From Akkermansiaceae bacterium (GTDB lineage Bacteria; Verrucomicrobiota; Verrucomicrobiia; Verrucomicrobiales; Akkermansiaceae): 64,000 nt of DNA. Each line of letters begins with the position of its first letter. The stretch's first letter is position 1. The translations under genes and the position numbers were made by a program. The DNA is taken from the NCBI GenBank assembly GCA_017798145.1, contig CP059069.1, forward strand, positions 2,279,226 to 2,343,225, written 5' to 3'. Below are positions 50,861 through 60,810 of the stretch, in pieces. The notes under the pieces were generated by a model. The model was not told the origin of the DNA. It ran no database searches and was given only the letters and a program-made list of their open reading frames with translations.

Positions 50861-50898
50861 AGAGATCCGTCTGATCGGACGCATCCGACCGATCTCCT
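50860..50898. repeat. inverted copy of the palindromic repeat between convergent genes
   Basis: Starts at the last base of the four-helix-bundle stop codon and ends at the stop codon of the convergent sulfatase-YHYH gene. In reverse orientation it matches the element at 50464-50503. It could form a hairpin that ends both transcripts, though no T-run is visible. Confidence 0.7.
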
Positions 50899-53705
50899 CA
50901 GGGCGTATCGATGACATCATAAGCATCCACACTATCCCTCCGCACTCGGTGGAAGCTGCGGTTGGGGCTGGCGGCGGGAATGGTGCGCTGGGTCTGGAAG
51001 GCGGAGCCATCTGCAGGCACCTGCGGTATGGTCGTCCAGTCAGTGAGATCCACGCTTGTTTCCACGACATAATTCCCGCCCTCGGCGCTGTCCCAGCGGA
51101 TCGTCACGTTGCCGCCGGATGGTTCGATGCGGTCGATCTCAAGCTGCGCATCCGCACCGCCTTGGTAGGTGGTGACGTTGGGCTCCTCGAGTGCATTGAA
51201 GCCAATAGTGCTGGCTGCGGCGAAGTTGCCACCCTGCTTCACGCCATGGTATTGGCGGCCGATGATGTAGGGGTAGGCAGGCTGGAACGAGGAGTCGATG
51301 GTGACGAAGTAGGCGTAGGTTCCTTCGGGAAACTCGGGCGTGATGCACCAGCGGCCGTTGCACTCGTCGAGGTCGAAATCCGTGCCCTGGGTGTAGCCCC
51401 GGTCGCCGAGGTAGTCATAGTCCTGAAGATACCAGCCGATGGGAAACGCGGCGCTCACCGCAGGGCCGGTGGCGGCATCTGCGACGGGGCTGATGCCGTG
51501 GCCGGAGCGGATCGCCCATGCGGGCAGGGTGGTGCGGCCTGCGGTGTTGAGGTTCGTGGTGCCGAAATTCCCGTCTCGCGGCACGTAGCCGCTGACGATG
51601 CGGCGCACGGCGCTGTTAGGGTCGGTGGAAATGCCGTATCCGTAGGGGCCGTAGATCGGGTAGCCGTCGAAGCTCCAGCCGAGGATAGGGCTGTGCGCGG
51701 GAGCTCCGGAGGCCTCGGTGTAGGTGTGGGTGGCGGGGTTGTACTCCATGTGGTCTCCCATTTCGTAACGCAGTGCGAAGGGGCTGATGTGGTGATGGCT
51801 TTCCCCGGTGAAGGGCTGGTGCGCGCCTGCGGGATCGAAGGTGAGGCCTTCGGCGAGGCGGGCGTTTCGCGTCCAGTATTCGGTGCCGCGCGCGTTGTCG
51901 TCGATGTCGCTACTACCATTCCAGTAGAACGCGTCGAGCTGGTTGTGGATGATGGCGGTGTTCACCCAGATGGCGATGGGGCCGAAGTTTGTGTTGGTGC
52001 GGGTGGCGGCCGGGACGGGCAGGCGTGGGATGCGGGCGAGCATATCCCATTGGCTCGGGTAGTTGACGAAGAGCTGGGTTTTCGCGGCATCGAAATACCA
52101 GGGTCCCATGGTGTAATGGGGCATCGACGAGCCTTTCACATAGACCCAGTTCGCGCTGACGCGGATGCTCTCGATCCCGGCGTAGGCGGGCAAGTCCTGC
52201 CGCCCGTTGCGAACGGCACCTTCGGGCGCCCATGTGGCGTCGGAGATGCCGTTGAGGGCGCGGTTCTGGGTGCGGTAGATGCGGGCGTATTCCGCGCCGG
52301 TGATTTTCTGCCATTGGGTTTCGGGCGGGGTGCCGAGCAGGTTGGGCGGGGAGATGTTTCCGGCCAGCTGGTCTGTTAGATCGTCGTAGGCGGCCTGGGC
52401 GGTCGTGTTGAGGGGGCTGAGCAGGAGGTTGGTTCGCTCGTCGGGATCGGTGGGCAGGAAATGCAGGCTTTCCGTGTTGTCGTTGAAGCGGTTGAGCTTG
52501 TAATCGCCGCTACGGACGGTGGCGCCGCCTTTGTCCGCAGCCACGGTGGAACCCGATAGCTGGCTCGAAGCGGCGCGGGCGGCGAGCGGCTGGTTTTGCA
52601 AAAGCGGCAGCAGGCTGCGGCTGTCGATGGGCTTGAGGGCGGGCTGGGTGGCGGCGACATCGATGCCGGCCATTTCGAGGATGGAGGCATAGAGGTCGGT
52701 GGCGTGGACGAGGTCGGTGACTTCGCGGTTGGGCGCGACGAGGCCCGGCCCGGTGACGATGAGCGGGACGCGGACACCGCCTTCGTAGAGGGATTCCTTC
52801 GAGTGGCCGTTGCTGAAGGGAGGCTGGATCACCTGGTTGGGCGTGCCGTTGTCGCCGATGAAGATGATCCATGTGTTGGCGAGGACGGCGGGCGGGATGT
52901 TTGCGAAGAGGCGGCCCATCTCGGTATCGAGCGCCTGGATGGCGGCGTTGAAGTGGGTGCGCAGGTTGGTGTTGATGGGGAGCGTGTTCCAGTTCGGCAC
53001 GGTGGTGTCGTAGGTGTGGAGGGCGGCGGGCGGTTTGTGGAAAGGGCTGTGAGGTGCGTTGTAGGCGACCCATGCGAACCAAGGGTTTGCGCCCTGCGCG
53101 TTGATCCAGTTGATCGTGTCGTCCGTGGTGTCGGTGGTGGCGTAGGTGGTGGTGGAGTTTTCCGGCCCGGTGATGCCGTTGATGGTTTTGGTCCAGGCAA
53201 AATAGGTGCCGGTGCCGCCGTTTCCTCCCGTCAGGCCGCCGTTGAGACTGCCTGCGAAATGCGGCCAGCCTGCGATGTTGGCGGGGTCGTTGGCCATGTT
53301 GTTGCTGAGGGACAAATGCCATTTCCCGAAATGGGCGAGCGAGTAACCGAGGGCGGAATGTGAGGCGAAGGCGCGCGGCAGGGTATACTCTCCGGCCATG
53401 AGCTGGCCGTCGTTGGCGGAGACCGCGGTGGTGACGCCATGGCGGAAGGGCTGGCGGCCGGTGAGGATGGAGGCGCGTGTCGGGGAGCAGGTCGGGTGGG
53501 CGTAGGCGTTGCGGAACTGGACGCCGCCTGCCTTGAGAGCATCGATGTTCGGCGTGGGCGGGAGAGCCGCGCCGGGGCTGCTGTTGTAGAGGGCGAGGCT
53601 GTCCGTGCCGAGATCATCCGCGATGATGAGCAGGACGTTGCGCCGCTGGGCGGGCGCTGTAACGGCCAGACCAAGCGAAAGGAGTATGGGTAGCGGGGTT
53701 TTCAT
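50898..53705 (-). CDS. secreted sulfatase fused to YHYH-type domain
   Basis: A 935-aa exported protein. After a signal peptide (about 1-20) comes a type I sulfatase (about 21-470): NVLLIIADDLGTDSLALYN, maturation motif CSPTRASILTGR with Cys73, GKWHLSLSNN, and the WIIFIGDNGTPNQVI segment. From about 560 a second module resembles the YHYH domain: HQPFTGESHHHISPFALRYE, the ILGWSFDGYPIYGPYGYGIS motif and CNGRWCITPEFPEGTYAYFV. The last about 80 residues look Fn3-like (GGNVTIRWDSAEGGNYVVET), common as verrucomicrobial tail modules. Both enzymatic and YHYH parts are complete. The shared palindrome at 53754-53769 is 48 bases upstream. Substrate unknown. Confidence 0.88.
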   Translation of the reverse strand: MKTPLPILLSLGLAVTAPAQRRNVLLIIADDLGTDSLALYNSSPGAALPPTPNIDALKAGGVQFRNAYAHPTCSPTRASILTGRQPFRHGVTTAVSANDGQLMAGEYTLPRAFASHSALGYSLAHFGKWHLSLSNNMANDPANIAGWPHFAGSLNGGLTGGNGGTGTYFAWTKTINGITGPENSTTTYATTDTTDDTINWINAQGANPWFAWVAYNAPHSPFHKPPAALHTYDTTVPNWNTLPINTNLRTHFNAAIQALDTEMGRLFANIPPAVLANTWIIFIGDNGTPNQVIQPPFSNGHSKESLYEGGVRVPLIVTGPGLVAPNREVTDLVHATDLYASILEMAGIDVAATQPALKPIDSRSLLPLLQNQPLAARAASSQLSGSTVAADKGGATVRSGDYKLNRFNDNTESLHFLPTDPDERTNLLLSPLNTTAQAAYDDLTDQLAGNISPPNLLGTPPETQWQKITGAEYARIYRTQNRALNGISDATWAPEGAVRNGRQDLPAYAGIESIRVSANWVYVKGSSMPHYTMGPWYFDAAKTQLFVNYPSQWDMLARIPRLPVPAATRTNTNFGPIAIWVNTAIIHNQLDAFYWNGSSDIDDNARGTEYWTRNARLAEGLTFDPAGAHQPFTGESHHHISPFALRYEMGDHMEYNPATHTYTEASGAPAHSPILGWSFDGYPIYGPYGYGISTDPNSAVRRIVSGYVPRDGNFGTTNLNTAGRTTLPAWAIRSGHGISPVADAATGPAVSAAFPIGWYLQDYDYLGDRGYTQGTDFDLDECNGRWCITPEFPEGTYAYFVTIDSSFQPAYPYIIGRQYHGVKQGGNFAAASTIGFNALEEPNVTTYQGGADAQLEIDRIEPSGGNVTIRWDSAEGGNYVVETSVDLTDWTTIPQVPADGSAFQTQRTIPAASPNRSFHRVRRDSVDAYDVIDTP

Positions 53706-53809: not shown

Positions 53810-54484
53810 ATGCGGGTTCTTTTGTTAGAAGACCAGGAAAGTCTGCGCAGCTCCACCCAAAAGGGATTGGAGGAGATGGGGTTCGCCGTGGACGCGGTGG
53901 AGGACGGTGATGTCGCGCTGGCGCAGGCATTGGAAACGCCCTACGACGCGCTGGTGCTCGACATCATGGTGCCTGGGCGCGACGGGTTGAGCATACTGCG
54001 CGTTTTACGGGAAAAGAAGCACACCACCCCGGTGATCCTGCTCACCGCCCGATCCACGCTTCCCGAAAGGATCGAGGGCTTGAACCTGGGCGCGGACGAT
54101 TATCTCACCAAGCCGTTTTACATCGAGGAGCTGGCCGCGCGGCTGCGGACGGTGGCGCGCCGCCATTCGGGTGCGGTGGGACATTTGCTGGAGGTGGGAG
54201 ATTTGCACATGGATCTGATCACGCGCAAGGCTTCGCGGGGTGGCGCCGAGATCGATCTATCGGCTCGTGAGTTCCAGTTGCTTGAGTTTTTCATGAGTAC
54301 GCCCGGCAGGGTGTTCAGCCGGGTGCAGATCTACGAGCAGGTCTGGGGATACGGGATGGATCTGGAGAGCAATCTCGTGGAGGTCTATGTGCAGCGGCTG
54401 CGTGCGAAGATCGACAAGGATCATGGGAAAAAACTGATCCGCACCATCCGCGGTGCGGGCTATGCATTGGGGGAGGCGCGATGA
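53810..54484 (+). CDS. OmpR/PhoB-type response regulator
   Basis: A 224-aa response regulator of the OmpR/CusR type. The receiver has the acidic pair LLEDQE near the start, phospho-acceptor Asp51 (ALVLDIMVPG), Thr79/Ala80 and Lys101 (LTKPF). The DNA-binding winged helix is DLSAREFQLLEFFMSTPGRV to VEVYVQRLRAKID and IRTIRGAGYAL. Its stop overlaps the kinase start (ATGA), so the two are a pair. The third gene of the unit encodes an MbnP/MbnH-like fusion, which suggests copper or peroxide-related regulation. A shared palindrome lies 40 bases upstream. Confidence 0.95.
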   Translation: MRVLLLEDQESLRSSTQKGLEEMGFAVDAVEDGDVALAQALETPYDALVLDIMVPGRDGLSILRVLREKKHTTPVILLTARSTLPERIEGLNLGADDYLTKPFYIEELAARLRTVARRHSGAVGHLLEVGDLHMDLITRKASRGGAEIDLSAREFQLLEFFMSTPGRVFSRVQIYEQVWGYGMDLESNLVEVYVQRLRAKIDKDHGKKLIRTIRGAGYALGEAR

Positions 54485-55995
54485 GCGGAAGGCGCCCATC
54501 GTCATTCCGGGTGCGCCTCGCGCTGCAAACAATGCTCGTGGCGGGCATCGTGGTGACCGGTTTCGGGGCGGGTGCGTGGTGGTTCGCGCTGGAGCAGCAG
54601 GCGCGCAACCACGACCTGCGCATCGGACAGGAGGCCCGTCGGCTGTGGACACAACTGACGCCGCGAGACCGCGAGGAGCAATTCGCGAGGGCGGTGGAGA
54701 AAATTTTCAGCGAGAGCGGGGAAGTGGTGGCGGTGACGGTGATGTGGCATACGGAGGGAAATCCCTCGGCGACATTTTCCGGGCCGACATGGAATGAAGC
54801 GAACCGCCCGGTCTTCGCCGGCTATCTGCCGCGGGGCTCCCAAGTGGTCACGAGCGGGGTGGATACCGATAGCACAACGCGACCGGCACGGGCTTTTTCG
54901 CCGGGTATCGGGAACTCCGGCTCGCCGCGCCGTCCCATCATGCCGGAGATCCGCACGCCCGATTTTTTTACGATCGAGGATGGGAAGGTGAAATGGCGCT
55001 TCGGTGCCTTCAGCAATCCGCATTACACCGTGTTTGTCGGATTGTCGCGCGATGCGCTGCAGGCCGAGGCGCGCGGCACCGCGCTGTGGTTCGCCGGTGG
55101 CGGAGTGATCGCATTGTTGATCGCGGGGCTGGGGGCATGGTGGGCATCCGGGCGGGCGATCCGTCCGCTCGACCGGATCGTTTCCATCTCGGAACGCATG
55201 AGCGCGGGAAACCTCGGTGAGCGCATCCCGCTCCACGGCGGCGATGACCGTGAGTTCGCGCAGCTGATCGGCGCCCTGAACGACATGACCGCGAGGCTGG
55301 AGCGGAGCTTCGAGCAATCCGCGCGCTTCACCGCCGATGCCTCGCACGAGCTGAAAACGCCGCTGGCGGTGATCCAGGGCACGCTCAACGATGTCCTGCG
55401 CACCGAGGCGCTGGATGACGAGTCCCACCAACGGATCAGCGTGGTGCTGCACCAGATGTCGCGGCTCAAGCACATCACCCAAAGCCTGCTGCTGCTCTCC
55501 CAAGCCGATGCGGGGGAGCTGCCGGTCCGCCGCGAGAGCTACAATCTTTCCGAAGATCTCGAAGGGCTCATGGAAGACGCCGAGGCGCTCTGCGAAGCGG
55601 CAGGGCTGGCATTCGAAAAGCACATCGAGCCGGGAGTCTTCGTTGAGGCCGACCGGGCGCTCATGCATCAGGTGCTCCAAAACCTGGTCAGCAACGCGGT
55701 GAAGCACAACCAAGCAGACGGTCGTGTGGAGATCCGTTTTGTCAGACATGCCAAGGGCGCTCGTTTCGAGATATCCAACACCTGCGCGGCGATTCCCGGG
55801 GAAGTTCAGGAGCGCCTGTTCGAGCGCTTCTACCGCGCCGAGGATTCGCGGAGCGGCGAGGGCTTCGGACTCGGGCTCAACATCGCCCGCGAGCTGGCGC
55901 GGGCAAATGGAGCGAAGCTCGAACTCATGCCCGCCGGGAGCGGGATGATCGGTTTTTCCGTGAACTTCCCCCATCCCATGCCGACGGAAACATGA
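54481..55995 (+). CDS. membrane-bound sensor histidine kinase
   Basis: A 504-aa sensor kinase. Two membrane helices (about 17-38 and 199-222) bracket a periplasmic domain of about 160 residues; a HAMP domain follows (about 223-275), then the H-box DASHELKTPLAV (His289), the N-box VLQNLVSNAVKHN and the G-boxes GEGFGLGLNIARELA. The overall plan resembles CusS/PcoS-type kinases of copper or silver response, but the sensor part has no obvious His/Met-rich metal site, so the signal is unknown. Its start overlaps the response regulator stop and its stop overlaps the start of the next gene (both ATGA), so the three genes are translationally coupled. Confidence 0.93.
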   Translation: MSGRRPSSFRVRLALQTMLVAGIVVTGFGAGAWWFALEQQARNHDLRIGQEARRLWTQLTPRDREEQFARAVEKIFSESGEVVAVTVMWHTEGNPSATFSGPTWNEANRPVFAGYLPRGSQVVTSGVDTDSTTRPARAFSPGIGNSGSPRRPIMPEIRTPDFFTIEDGKVKWRFGAFSNPHYTVFVGLSRDALQAEARGTALWFAGGGVIALLIAGLGAWWASGRAIRPLDRIVSISERMSAGNLGERIPLHGGDDREFAQLIGALNDMTARLERSFEQSARFTADASHELKTPLAVIQGTLNDVLRTEALDDESHQRISVVLHQMSRLKHITQSLLLLSQADAGELPVRRESYNLSEDLEGLMEDAEALCEAAGLAFEKHIEPGVFVEADRALMHQVLQNLVSNAVKHNQADGRVEIRFVRHAKGARFEISNTCAAIPGEVQERLFERFYRAEDSRSGEGFGLGLNIARELARANGAKLELMPAGSGMIGFSVNFPHPMPTET

Positions 55996-57680
55996 GGGCG
56001 CTCTTCATGATTTCCGGGATTTTCCTACCATCGGTGATGGCCGCACCGCTGCAGGTGGCGTTTGTTCATGAGGCGGATGGAAAGCCATTGGCGCTTGATT
56101 CCCTGCGCCACACGAACGCTGCCGGGGAAACATTCTCGGTTTCCCGGCTGGATTGGCTGGCAACGGGTTTCTCCGTCACGACGGCGGATGGCGCGACCCA
56201 TGCGTATGGAGACGCTGTCGCCTTTGTCTCCGGCAAAGGGGGCGGGGTCGCGCTGGGCGAGGCTCCGGGCGGGCGGATCACCTCGCTGACCTTCCACATC
56301 GGGCCGGATGAAAAAACGAACCATGGCGATCCCGCGCGCCATGCTCCGGGGCATCCGCTCAATCCGAATGCAAACCGCCTGCACTGGGATTGGCAGGGCG
56401 GCTACATCTTCCTCGCCGCCGAGGGACTGTGGCGGAAGGCCGGTGCGGGCAATGAGGCGCTGGGGGGATTCGCCTATCATTTCGCCCGTGACCCGAACCG
56501 CACCAGGGTGACGCTGCCGGTCGATCTCGAGGCGCGTGATGCCAGCCGGGTGGTCGTGTCGCTGGATGCCATCAAACTGTTAGACGGGCTGTCGTTTGCG
56601 GCCGACGGGGCGACCACGCATTCCATCGAGGGCGACCCGGTGGTGGAAAAGCTCAAGGCCGGCCTCGCCTCCGCATTCCGGGTGGCGGGCATCGAGACCG
56701 CCGCCATGCCGCTCCCGGCAAGCAGGCCGGAGCCCATCGACCTGCCTTCCGAACCGGAGGGCTATCCGCTGACCCTGCCACGCCACGTGCCACTGCCGTC
56801 GCTGCCTTTGGACAATCCGTTGCTGGTCCAGAGGGTGGCCTTGGGCGAGCGGCTTTTCAACGAGCCGAAGCTCTCGCGCACCAACGCGATTTCGTGCGCT
56901 TCCTGCCATCAGGGGGAAGAGATGTCGGATCCGCGCCGGTTCAGCCCCGGCGTGGACGGAAAACATGGGTCGCGCCATGCGATGCCACTTTTCAACCTCG
57001 CCTGGAAATCGAGTTTTTTCTGGGACGGGCGCGCGCCGTCGCTGCGCGAGCAGGTGCTGGTTCCGATCGAGGATCCGCTGGAGATGGATGAGACGCTGGA
57101 AAACGTGGTGGCGAAACTCACCGCCGATCCCGCTTATCCGCCGCTGTTCCAAGCCGCCTTCGGATCGGGAAAGATCACACCGGAGAACATTGGCCTGGCT
57201 CTGGAGAATTTCCTGCTCACACGGGTCAGCTTCGATTCCAAATTCGACCGTGCCTTTGTCGGCAAGGAAACACTCACCACGCAGGAGAAGCGCGGTTTCG
57301 AGCTGTTTTTCACCGAATCCGAGCCGCGCATGGGACGGCGTGGCGCCGATTGCTTCCACTGCCACGGAGGCGCTGATTTCACCGACCATTCGTTCCACAA
57401 CAACGGCCTATCCACTACGGATGACGTAGGTCTGGGGAAAACCACGGGCCTTGCCTCGGACCGTTACAAGTTCAGCACCCCTTCGCTGCGCAACATCGCC
57501 CGCACCGCGCCCTACATGCACGACGGGCGTTTCGCTACGCTGGAGGAAGTCATCGAGCACTACAACTCTCCTCCAAAGCCCAGCGCCACGCTGGATCCGA
57601 ACCTCGCCAAGCATCCCCAGGGTCTCGGACTGGACGAGGAAGACAAGGCCGCACTGATCGAGTTTTTGAAAACGCTTTGA
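55992..57680 (+). CDS. MbnP-like domain fused to MbnH/MauG-type diheme cytochrome c peroxidase
   Basis: A 562-aa exported protein. A signal peptide (about 1-18) leads to a roughly 225-residue domain that resembles MbnP, the copper-binding partner of methanobactin operons: SLTFHIGPDEKTNHGDP (98-114), then PLNPNANRLHWDWQGGYIF (122-140), and GGFAYHF (158-164). The second part (about 265-562) is a diheme peroxidase of the MbnH/MauG/CcpA family: first heme CASCH (302-306), SFFWDGRAPSLREQ (341-354), second heme CFHCHGG (454-460), DRYKFSTPSLRNI and APYMHDGRF (507-514). A Tyr492 stands near the place where CcpA has its Met ligand. Family knowledge: MbnH oxidises a Trp of MbnP to kynurenine; here enzyme and possible substrate are one chain. 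It overlaps the kinase gene by 4 bases. Confidence 0.8.
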   Translation: MRALFMISGIFLPSVMAAPLQVAFVHEADGKPLALDSLRHTNAAGETFSVSRLDWLATGFSVTTADGATHAYGDAVAFVSGKGGGVALGEAPGGRITSLTFHIGPDEKTNHGDPARHAPGHPLNPNANRLHWDWQGGYIFLAAEGLWRKAGAGNEALGGFAYHFARDPNRTRVTLPVDLEARDASRVVVSLDAIKLLDGLSFAADGATTHSIEGDPVVEKLKAGLASAFRVAGIETAAMPLPASRPEPIDLPSEPEGYPLTLPRHVPLPSLPLDNPLLVQRVALGERLFNEPKLSRTNAISCASCHQGEEMSDPRRFSPGVDGKHGSRHAMPLFNLAWKSSFFWDGRAPSLREQVLVPIEDPLEMDETLENVVAKLTADPAYPPLFQAAFGSGKITPENIGLALENFLLTRVSFDSKFDRAFVGKETLTTQEKRGFELFFTESEPRMGRRGADCFHCHGGADFTDHSFHNNGLSTTDDVGLGKTTGLASDRYKFSTPSLRNIARTAPYMHDGRFATLEEVIEHYNSPPKPSATLDPNLAKHPQGLGLDEEDKAALIEFLKTL

Positions 57681-57702: not shown

Positions 57703-60700
57703 TCAGCGCAGGGTGATGTTGGTGTCGAGGTTGAGGAGTGCTTGGGCGAGGGCGGCGAAGGTGGCGGTTTCGATTGCATCAAGCGCGGGGTCGGCCTGCG
57801 ATTCGCCCACTTTCAGCAGGGCGGCGGCATCGGAGGATCCCGATGTGAAAAACGTGCGCTGATCCGCGATGAGGTCAAGCAGCAGCGTGAGCTGTTCGGC
57901 GGTGGGTTCTTTCCCGGTGACCTCGCGGTAGGCCCATTTCGCCCGGGATTCCCCGGTGGCGCCGCCTTCCCTCAGGATGCGCTCGCCGAGCTTGCGGGCG
58001 GCCTCCACGTATTGCGGGTCGTTGAGCATCACGAGGGATTGCAGGGGGGTGTTGGTCGGCATGCGGCGGGTCGCGCAGACATCGCGCGTCCCGGCGTCAA
58101 AGATGGTCATGTTGGGCGGGGTGGTGGTGCGCCGCCAGAAGGTGTAGAGCGAGCGGCGGTGGAGGCCTTCGCCGCTGTCCGCCTTGTATTCCGGCAGGAA
58201 GTTGTTGAGCGTCTTCCACATCGATCCGGGCGCCTGGTAGGGCTTGACCGGTGGGCCGCCGATGCTTTCCACGAGGAGACCGGAGAGGGCCAGCGCGGAG
58301 TCGCGCAGCTGCTCGGCGGTGAGGCGGCGGGCGGGGCCGCGGGCGAGCAGGGCGTTGTCGGGGTCGCGCTCGCGCAGCTCCGGCGAGGCCGACGAATCCT
58401 GGCCGTAGGTGGCGGAGAGGAGCATCTGCCTGATCGCGCGTTTCTGGTCCCAGCCGTGGTTGATGAAATCGCGGGCGAGCCAATCCAAGAGTTCCGGATG
58501 GGAGGGCTGTGCGCCCTGGAGGCCGAAGTTCTCGGAGGTGGCGACAAGGCCGGTGCCGAAGATTTCCTGCCAGATGCGGTTGATGGTGACGCGGGCGGTG
58601 AGCGGGTGCTCGGGCGAGGTGAGCCAGCGCGCGAAGCCGAGGCGGTTGCGGGGCTCGCCTTCGGGGAAGGGCGGCAGCCAGTCGGGGGTCTCGCGCCCCA
58701 CCCTTTCCGCAGGCATGGTGTAGTCGCCGCGTTTCAGGATGAAGTGGGGTATGGGCTCGGCGCTTTCGCGCATGGTGACGATCTCGCGCACCTTGTTCTG
58801 CTCCTCCCGGAACGCGGCGCGGGCGGCGTTGAGTTTCTTGCGCAGTTCGCGCGAGGCGGGATCGATGGCGGAGAGATAGTAGTCGCGGAGTTGCGATGGA
58901 TCGGAGGGGGTATTCGCCAGCGGCGCGCCCTTGTGGATGGCGAGCGCTTCCAGCGGTGTGATGGCGCGGAGATGGATGGAGACATCGTCGATCATTCCGC
59001 CGCGCAGGCCGGGGAAGCGTGAGCGGGCGGCGAAGCGGATGGCGGAGGCGGAGGAGAAATCGCGGGTTAGCGTATCGCAGGCGATGCTGGTCGGGGCCGG
59101 TTTCCCGTTGAGGAAAATCCTGAGTCCGGCGGCTTTGCGGGAGCCGTCGCTGGTGACTGTGACGTGCGTCCATTGCCCGGTGGGGATCGCTTCGGTGGTG
59201 TTGATGGATGCGGCGTTTCCGGGGAATTCACGGGCGAGAGTCCATGCCAGGCGACCTTCCTCCAGGAGCAGCTCGTAGCCGGAATACGGGACATCGGCGG
59301 AGGTGGAGTTTGCGAACACCACGGCGACCGGATAATCCTCACCGGGCTTGAGCCAGAGGGAAACGGAGAAGGGCTGGTCGGCGTGGCGTATGCCGAAATC
59401 GGGAAACACGACCGCATCGTCGCCATTGGTCTGGACGCCGTTGCCGGTTTGCCCGGGCGCAAGGGTGTTGCCGCCGATCTTGGCGGAAGACTTGGGATCC
59501 ACTGCGTTGAGGAAGGCTGCCGCAGAATCGCCGTCGAAGCCGAAGCGCCCGGCGAGATCGGCTTGCGGAAAATCCTTTTCGGAGGAAAGCCAGGCCTGGA
59601 AATCCGCTTCGGAGCCTGCAATGCGGGTGGCGAGATCGGCCTCCGCGGCAGCGATGGCTTTCTCGAGCGCGGCGAGTTTTTGCTCCTGCTCGGGCGAAGG
59701 GAGCTCGAGGGCTGGCTGTGCGGTCACGCCGGTTTTCCAGCTCATGATCCCGAACTCGTCGATGCTGTTGAAAAAGGCGCCCATGGAATAATAGTCCTTG
59801 GCGGTGATCGGGTCGTATTTGTGATCGTGGCATCTGGCGCATTCCATGGTGAGCGCCATGAAGGCGGTGCCGACGGTGTGGACACGGTCGGAGACGCCGT
59901 CCTGTCGGAACTCCTCGGGAACCGAGCCGCCTTCGTTGGTCTTGCGGTGGATGCGGTTGAAGGCGGTGGCGAGTTTCTGCTGGCGGGTGGCTCCGGGCAG
60001 GAGATCGCCTGCGAGCTGTTGGATGATGAATTCGTTTATGGGAAGGTTGCGGTTGAAAGCCTCGATCACCCAGTCGCGGTAAGGCCATGCATCGGTGTCA
60101 ACGTCCGCCTGGTAGCCGAAGGAATCCGCGTAGCGGACGACGTCGAGCCACGGGGTGGCCATGTGCTCGCCATAGCGAGGGGATGCAAGCAGCCTGTCCA
60201 CCACGGTTTCCTTTGCCGCGGATGATTCGTCTGCGAGGAAGGCATCGATCTCAGACTGGGTCGGCGGCAGGCCGGTGAGGGTGTAGGTCGCGCGTCGCAG
60301 CCAGCGCTCGGGGCTGGCGGTCTCCGTGGGGGAGAGCCCTTCCTTTTCCAAGCGGTACAGGACGAAGGAGTCGATGGGGTTTGCGGCCCACGACTTTTCC
60401 TTCGTTTCAGGAACCGGGACTTCCTTCGGCGGGGTGACGAAGGCCCAGTGGGTCTCGTATTCCGCGCCTTGTTCCACCCATCGCCTGATGAGGTTTTTCT
60501 CCGTTTCGGAAAGAGTGCGGTGGGAATCCGGCGGTGGCATGATCTCGTCCTCGTCGTCCGAGAAAATGCGGATCAGCGCCTCGGAGTTTTCGGGAAACTC
60601 GGGATCCCATGCGAGCGCCTTGATGGCCTCCTCGCGGACATCGAGCCGTAGGTCTGCTTCCTGCTTCCCCTTGTCCGGGCCGTGGCAGTGGAAGCACTTG

Positions 60701-60810
60701 TCGGAGAGGATGGGCAGGATCTCGCGGGCGTAGGAGATTTCCCCGCCCGTTGCATGGCACGGCACGGCAACGGCAAGGATCCAGGGAATTGAATGGATAT
60801 ACCTCCTCAT
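57703..60810 (-). CDS. PSCyt1-DUF1549-LamG-DUF1553 protein
   Basis: A 1035-aa exported protein. Signal peptide, then PSCyt1 with heme motif CFHCHGPDKG, a DUF1549 domain (RRATYTLTGLPPTQSEID, PWLDVVRYADSFGYQ, second heme-type motif CARCHDHKYDP), an inserted LamG/concanavalin-like module (about 455-620: FSVSLWLKPGEDYPV, GQWTHVTVTSDG, RIFLNGKPAP) and DUF1553 (LTARVTINRIWQEIFGTGLV, SHPELLDWLARDF, RRLTAEQLRDSALALSGLL, PLQSLVMLNDPQYV). It is larger than the copy at 45374-47833 because of the LamG insert and has no adjacent DUF1501 gene. It is convergent with the MbnP/MbnH-like gene, 22 bases apart. Glycan binding by the LamG part is plausible. Confidence 0.95.
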   Translation of the reverse strand: MRRYIHSIPWILAVAVPCHATGGEISYAREILPILSDKCFHCHGPDKGKQEADLRLDVREEAIKALAWDPEFPENSEALIRIFSDDEDEIMPPPDSHRTLSETEKNLIRRWVEQGAEYETHWAFVTPPKEVPVPETKEKSWAANPIDSFVLYRLEKEGLSPTETASPERWLRRATYTLTGLPPTQSEIDAFLADESSAAKETVVDRLLASPRYGEHMATPWLDVVRYADSFGYQADVDTDAWPYRDWVIEAFNRNLPINEFIIQQLAGDLLPGATRQQKLATAFNRIHRKTNEGGSVPEEFRQDGVSDRVHTVGTAFMALTMECARCHDHKYDPITAKDYYSMGAFFNSIDEFGIMSWKTGVTAQPALELPSPEQEQKLAALEKAIAAAEADLATRIAGSEADFQAWLSSEKDFPQADLAGRFGFDGDSAAAFLNAVDPKSSAKIGGNTLAPGQTGNGVQTNGDDAVVFPDFGIRHADQPFSVSLWLKPGEDYPVAVVFANSTSADVPYSGYELLLEEGRLAWTLAREFPGNAASINTTEAIPTGQWTHVTVTSDGSRKAAGLRIFLNGKPAPTSIACDTLTRDFSSASAIRFAARSRFPGLRGGMIDDVSIHLRAITPLEALAIHKGAPLANTPSDPSQLRDYYLSAIDPASRELRKKLNAARAAFREEQNKVREIVTMRESAEPIPHFILKRGDYTMPAERVGRETPDWLPPFPEGEPRNRLGFARWLTSPEHPLTARVTINRIWQEIFGTGLVATSENFGLQGAQPSHPELLDWLARDFINHGWDQKRAIRQMLLSATYGQDSSASPELRERDPDNALLARGPARRLTAEQLRDSALALSGLLVESIGGPPVKPYQAPGSMWKTLNNFLPEYKADSGEGLHRRSLYTFWRRTTTPPNMTIFDAGTRDVCATRRMPTNTPLQSLVMLNDPQYVEAARKLGERILREGGATGESRAKWAYREVTGKEPTAEQLTLLLDLIADQRTFFTSGSSDAAALLKVGESQADPALDAIETATFAALAQALLNLDTNITLR

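Follow-up and report, generated by a model that had tools for sequence, protein, structure and literature searches.

The window studied here is a 64,000-nucleotide stretch of an Akkermansiaceae bacterium (assembly GCA_017798145.1, contig CP059069.1, positions 2,279,226 to 2,343,225), which lies in a single-contig genome of 4.39 Mb. At positions 55992..57680 of its plus strand it encodes a 562-residue protein in which an MbnP domain and an MbnH/MauG-type diheme peroxidase are joined in one chain. By both sequence and fold this fusion is genuine, and the fused form is widespread in Verrucomicrobiota. Previously, MbnP and MbnH were known as a separate pair; new here are the fusion, its altered ligand set and its genomic link to the YHYH protein. 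We favor, with somewhat better than even confidence, the interpretation that it is a self-maturing metal-site protein, whose peroxidase half would oxidize Trp132 (W132) of its own chain to kynurenine, thus forming a copper site, and which would serve the exported enzymes encoded beside it. An earlier note on this DNA had proposed a self-modifying copper-handling protein under CusRS-like control. That interpretation is partly supported overall, and it missed the wide family, the His ligand set and the YHYH partner.

An MbnP-MbnH Fusion in One Chain

The MbnP domain spans approximately residues 18-236 (56043..56699, plus strand), following a putative signal peptide that we assigned by eye to residues 1-18 or so, and the peroxidase spans residues 259-562 (56766..57677, plus strand). 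In Pfam, the MbnP family PF20243 matches residues 19-206 with an E-value of 1.8e-23 and 83.9 bits, passing the curated cut-off of 27, and CCP_MauG (PF03150) matches residues 280-426 with an E-value of 2e-50. When a profile of 80 fusions was compared with methanotroph MbnH, the match had a probability of 100% (E 1.3e-57), and matches to two separate MbnPs had probabilities of 92.5% and 97.5% (E 4.8e-7 and 5.9e-12, respectively). A sequence search gave MbnH (6e1c) as the top solved relative of the C-terminal half (E 9.8e-42), and a corresponding search with the N-terminal half by itself gave none. All of the hallmark motifs listed in the earlier note are present in the translation (FHIG, NHGDP, PLNPNANRLHWDWQGGY, FAYH, CASCH at C302 and CFHCHGG at C454). 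Its assignment of the N-terminal part to MbnP is borne out by significant matches in Pfam, profile comparison and fold, and its diheme peroxidase by PF03150, the MbnH structure and the two heme motifs.

The AlphaFold2 model of the fusion, built from the 80 relatives, has a predicted local distance difference test (pLDDT) score of 92.2 and a predicted template modeling score (pTM) of 0.90. It superposes on MbnH 6e1c with Z 32.2 (root-mean-square deviation (rmsd) 2.0 over 293 residues), and a VIA match to Methylosinus trichosporium MbnP (7l6g) has Z 17.6 (rmsd 3.1 over 205 residues). The linker is ordered, with blocks across residues 231-260 at pLDDT 86, 89 and 96; given this and the pTM of 0.90, the two halves are confidently placed against each other. 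By our estimate, freely moving domains of approximately 235 and 325 residues should not yield such a pTM, which indirectly hints at action in cis. Of 50 rows in the structure match list, 21, all of them classical bacterial peroxidases, have alignments that reach back to model residue 130-134, and thus the WxW loop (W132-D133-W134) overlies the N-terminal segment of those enzymes. In classical peroxidases this segment lies against the C-terminal heme domain, and the modeled overlay is an indirect sign that the loop may contact the peroxidase half, a second hint at action in cis. The MbnH and MauG rows of the same comparison start at model residue 257-278, and neither support nor oppose a contact between Trp and heme.

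Distribution of the Fusion

A scan of public genomes found 557 stretches that encode relatives of the fusion, of which the best 80 were kept; weaker relatives from other phyla may exist. All but one of the 80 are titled Verrucomicrobiota, the remaining record (L026) being titled only "bacterium". Both halves are matched in a single frame in 80 of 80, and likewise in loci L001-L020, which comprise the window's own locus and 19 from a draw of its relatives; in L007 and L017 the second heme motif is missing because the contig ends. Of 59 relatives, 21 have an MbnP match, as do 22 of 387 genomes drawn evenly across the phylum; the window's own genome is in both draws, which also have several other genomes in common. 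In the phylum draw, MbnP is found at 26 places, with the second fragment in genome G165 not counted apart, and these are 24 one-frame fusions and two broken ones. In G165 (L115/L121) a copy of the fusion gene is split across frames, and in G178 (L117) the frame ends early and is followed by what we read as IS630-type transposase-like reading frames, so that this copy was apparently interrupted by an insertion of that kind.

Outside the phylum, the seven MbnP/peroxidase pairs found on plasmid records (L123, L124, L127-L131) consist of two genes each; two further plasmid loci (L125, L126), not among the seven, have the peroxidase half only. Some of the separate peroxidases are annotated "MbnM", which is contradicted by their match to the peroxidase profile. 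Among the 366 matching plasmid records (a set of plasmid records only, without the chromosomes of other phyla), none covers 80% of the fusion query. Our literature search found no report of an MbnP-MbnH fusion, with the limit that Manesis 2021, Kenney 2019 and a 2018 review may mention one, and the words "fusion" and "fused" are absent from a 2013 genome-mining paper.

Conserved Residues and the Candidate Metal Site

Residue counts below come from an alignment of the window's protein with those of 79 of the 80 kept loci (L058 was omitted, because its open frame begins only within the matched part); close relatives are included, so that the counts are of non-independent events. W132, the first Trp of the WxW motif (56385..56393, plus strand), is Trp in 80 of 80; every other Trp column of the N-terminal domain varies. 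The second, W134, is Trp in 75 and Pro in five, and all five sequences that lack it keep W132. Invariance of this kind, even where W134 is lost, is as expected of a substrate, and W132 is likely the residue that is converted to kynurenine. The earlier note had named W55, W132 and W134 as candidates; the two WxW residues hold up, and W55, which is Trp in only 5 of 80, is rejected. The fusions with Pro in place of the second Trp (L067, L079, L090, L095 and L098) offer a ready-made way to probe what W134 does. As regards covariation with this change, the group consists of five sequences that differ at many columns.

The candidate metal ligands are His163 (56478..56480) and His210 (56619..56621), both on the plus strand and both invariant (80/80), together with His131 (78/80). 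His163 is at the conserved His position of the separate MbnPs: in an alignment that includes seven of these, all 13 rows share the two WxW Trp residues and a His at position 163. As read from that alignment, a Met is placed two residues before the first Trp in six of these seven MbnPs, and a CM motif, whose Met is at the position of His210, is also found in six. Within the N-terminal domains of the fusions no Cys or Met position is conserved. Cys is missing altogether from 57 of 80, and no sequence has more than 3, too few for the four-Cys motif of canonical MbnP; the Met residues of canonical members are likewise not conserved. MbnH is reported (Manesis 2021, PNAS) to oxidize the first Trp of the WxW motif, and the MbnP copper to have a His and a Met ligand. 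The conserved candidate ligands of the fusion are His, rather than His and Met, so a copper site in it would resemble those of CorA and MopE, with two His and a kynurenine. CorA binds Cu(I) via His64, His114 and a water, with Kyn62 at 2.9 Å, and the MopE copper site comprises two His and one kynurenine.

Since the conserved candidates are His only, with no conserved Met in the domain, the site might instead bind another metal, or copper(II). We consider this very unlikely, because CorA holds Cu(I) with two His and a nearby kynurenine, and because copper-enzyme-like neighbors occur in some lineages (see below).

Both heme-binding motifs of the C-terminal half are invariant in their Cys and His residues: CASCH at 56895..56909 (C302, C305 and H306) and CFHCH at 57351..57365 (C454, C457 and H458), on the plus strand. 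Trp338, Trp344, Glu364 and Tyr524 (57561..57563, plus strand) are likewise conserved in 80 of 80. Presumably Trp344 and Glu364 are among the functional positions of the peroxidase, and the Tyr524 position has an axial-ligand role in related enzymes. Tyr524 aligns with a Tyr of MbnH and with a Met of the peroxidase MacA, and the protein thus carries the marks of the MbnH/MauG type, namely two CxxCH motifs and a Tyr that replaces the Met of classical peroxidases. The superfamily is shared with those classical enzymes, and the fusion could in principle be a plain cytochrome c peroxidase that removes peroxide, with a fused metal-binding domain and no Trp oxidation. This is very unlikely, considering that Tyr524 is present in every sequence where MacA has Met, that MbnH is the closest structure, and that W132 is strictly conserved.

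Comparison with Known Systems

The fusion resembles the MbnP and MbnH of methanotrophs (7l6g, 6e1c) in both folds, the WxW motif, the conserved His, and a diheme enzyme with two CxxCH motifs and the Tyr. It differs from them in being one chain, in having an MbnP half without conserved Cys or Met, and in scoring below the equivalog cut-offs. CorA and MopE also have a peroxidase-like partner gene (for CorA this is the co-transcribed CorB), and the two His with kynurenine that are observed in those systems are predicted in the fusion; there the partners are two genes, whereas the Verrucomicrobiota protein is one. MauG is similar in fold, in belonging to the peroxidase superfamily, and in Trp modification (which is known for MauG), but has no MbnP half and acts on a separate protein.

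Among separate MbnPs, that of Deinococcus radiodurans scores highest against the fusion's N-terminal profile (67 bits, the top of five that match), and it too lacks the CM motif. It and its cytochrome c peroxidase are two genes, and they lie beside the annotated copper genes CopC and CopD. A part in methanobactin production is rejected for the fusion, because the window's genome has no match to the MbnB family TIGR04159.

Genomic Partners

The most common genomic partner of the fusion is a YHYH protein, and the linkage between MbnP and YHYH is new here; our literature search found no report that connects the two. In the window, the YHYH domain (PF14240; residues 558-807) is the C-terminal part of a sulfatase (PF00884) gene at 50898..53705 on the minus strand, which is divergent from the response regulator gene upstream of the fusion, 104 bp away, and is 4.0 kb from the MbnP domain. 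A survey of neighbors in the 80 loci, based on a crude gene call and clustering, found one common partner cluster in 38, with 30 of its 50 members immediately upstream of the fusion in the same orientation. Six members of the cluster and one other neighbor (L024) were compared with Pfam, and all match YHYH PF14240. When the YHYH region of the window was used as the query, 35 of 80 loci matched, and the two counts combined cover 41 loci. In the phylum draw, YHYH occurs in 22 of 22 genomes with MbnP versus 26 of 365 others (Fisher 6.6e-23, a value that ignores relatedness), and it is within 6 kb of MbnP in 17 of 22 genomes and at 17 of 26 places, upstream in 16 of the 17. The corresponding values for the relatives draw are 18 of 21 versus 7 of 38, with 11 of 21 within 6 kb. 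Over all listed YHYH places, a long form of at least 650 bp was counted in 18 of the 22 genomes with MbnP and in 3 without it (18 and 5 for at least 600 bp; 17 and 3 for at least 700 bp).

In 35 YHYH sequences (some loci have two), His175, His183, His185, His217, Met79 and several Asp residues are invariant. The predicted YHYH model is modest (pLDDT 72.3, pTM 0.74), and from it no Foldseek match in the PDB was found at E 0.001; there was also no PDB sequence match at E 10. The only functional idea that our literature search found for YHYH is a hydrolase role in phage tails, along with a metal site predicted to consist of three His and one Asp. The linkage with MbnP is thus a genomic lead on this family. 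In L047 (2611-5886) a gene with the sulfatase and YHYH domains in reverse order precedes the fusion gene by 16 bp. On a plasmid of Deinococcus sp. KNUC1210 (L132:5323-7399), only 4 bp separate a YHYH gene from a following gene of the HupE/UreJ family.

A galactose-oxidase-type gene directly follows the fusion in 6 of 80 loci, which probably represent few lineages. The two genes share four bases at the fusion stop in L083, L084, L091, L092 and L097; in L078 the second gene starts 21 bp on. The L083 and L078 genes have galactose-oxidase domains in Pfam (L083 versus galactose oxidase, E 6.6e-83), and the other four cluster with that of L083. By our own patterns, MFC and YHS motifs occur in all six and a TH motif in five (not L092); these motifs correspond to ligand positions of galactose oxidase. 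The L083 gene (7755-13688) encodes a 1978-residue protein with PA14, PKD and Ig-like domains, which near its C-terminus has a short CCP_MauG match and two CxxCH motifs in the same chain; similarly long genes are present in L084, L091, L092 and L097.

The partners allow a different account, in which the substrate of the peroxidase half is the neighboring YHYH protein or galactose oxidase, whose cofactor it would build or activate in trans, and the MbnP half is a docking or metal-donor module. The co-occurrence and proximity of YHYH, the close spacing of the galactose-oxidase-type genes and the precedent of MauG, which works on a separate protein, are all in keeping with this. Against it, W132 is invariant, including in the five sequences without W134, as a substrate would be, and 9 of 26 MbnP places lack a YHYH within 6 kb. 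On balance we think action in trans rather unlikely.

Proposed Mechanism

Under the self-maturing interpretation, the fusion would probably be exported, and peroxide would drive its MbnH-like C-terminal half to a high-valent state. The oxidizing equivalents would then reach W132 of the MbnP domain within the same chain, converting it to kynurenine, and kynurenine 132, His163, and His210 and/or His131 may together form a copper site. The protein might in this way serve copper handling for the exported oxidative enzymes encoded beside it, i.e., YHYH proteins and, in some lineages, galactose oxidase. A broader proposal, which we hold only tentatively and regard as somewhat doubtful, is that of a widespread Verrucomicrobiota system in which a His-only copper protein makes its own kynurenine and then supplies or activates exported YHYH proteins, which would be a new class of copper enzymes, with galactose oxidase as an alternative client.

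Copper as the metal of the site is supported, not proven. Some separate MbnP pairs outside the phylum are also beside annotated copper genes, and MbnPH-like genes of other bacteria are found in copper operons. Twenty neighbors of the fusion were scanned with Pfam, and include seven YHYH, two galactose-oxidase domains and one cupredoxin domain.

Several observations weigh against the self-maturing interpretation. The fusion scores well under the NCBIfam cut-offs for the MbnP equivalog TIGR04052 (26.9 bits versus 140) and for MbnH TIGR04039 (211.3 versus 362.85), the latter being nevertheless its best NCBIfam match. Both Met positions of the separate MbnPs are replaced, by Leu130 (79 of 80, with one Met) and by His210, and because of this the known His/Met copper site cannot be present unchanged. 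Ten of the 20 scanned neighbors are not recognizable copper proteins (a proton pyrophosphatase, an AcrB-type pump, a peptidase, a DUF2264 protein, etc.), and the 9 MbnP places without YHYH within 6 kb count here as well.

If the self-maturing interpretation is correct, kynurenine metal sites extend across a phylum, and occur in a genome that has no MbnB. It predicts a His-only variant of such a site, and enzyme and substrate in one chain would allow the making of kynurenine metal sites to be studied with a single gene.

Regulatory Genes and Other Neighbors

In the window, the fusion gene is preceded by genes for an OmpR-type response regulator (53810..54484, plus strand; PF00072, PF00486) and a HAMP/HisKA/HATPase sensor kinase (54481..55995, plus strand; PF00672, PF00512, PF02518). 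The three genes (53810-54484, 54481-55995 and 55992-57680) overlap by four bases each, and the coordinates and overlaps in the earlier note are exact. It had also described the pair as CusRS-like. Heavy-metal families are indeed the nearest in NCBIfam, but both proteins fall below the curated subfamily cut-offs (regulator, TIGR01387, 230 bits versus 279; kinase, TIGR01386, 193 versus 293), and copper control of the operon is a guess. Likewise, the idea that the fusion has its own two-component system is correct for the window but does not apply generally: within the flanks covered by the loci, a relative of the regulator or kinase is present in 14 of 80, and both in 9, so the three-gene operon is rejected as a family feature.

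Kinases near L046, L060, L069, L086 and L095 score 130-174 bits against the window's kinase (L100, 96; L045, 87); the best kinase paralog in the window's own genome scores lower, at 81 bits, a value from a different BLAST run. Among the first 100 loci, no sensor region similar to that of the window's kinase was found at E 10, other than the window itself. A promoter scan around the operon gave 1 site (0.7 expected by chance), and terminators number 6 (3.4 expected, standard deviation 2.0), with none directly 3' of the fusion; repeats are unremarkable. On the other side of the fusion is a convergent gene on the minus strand (57703-60810), which encodes a PSCyt1-PSCyt2-PSD1 protein with a Laminin_G_3 stretch, and ends 22 bp from the fusion stop.

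Two other loci have related arrangements of regulatory genes. The gene order in L086 is regulator, kinase, YHYH, fusion. In L012 (3204-3575), a response-regulator frame with 48% identity over 122 residues to that of the window is downstream of the fusion, and overlaps its stop by four bases.

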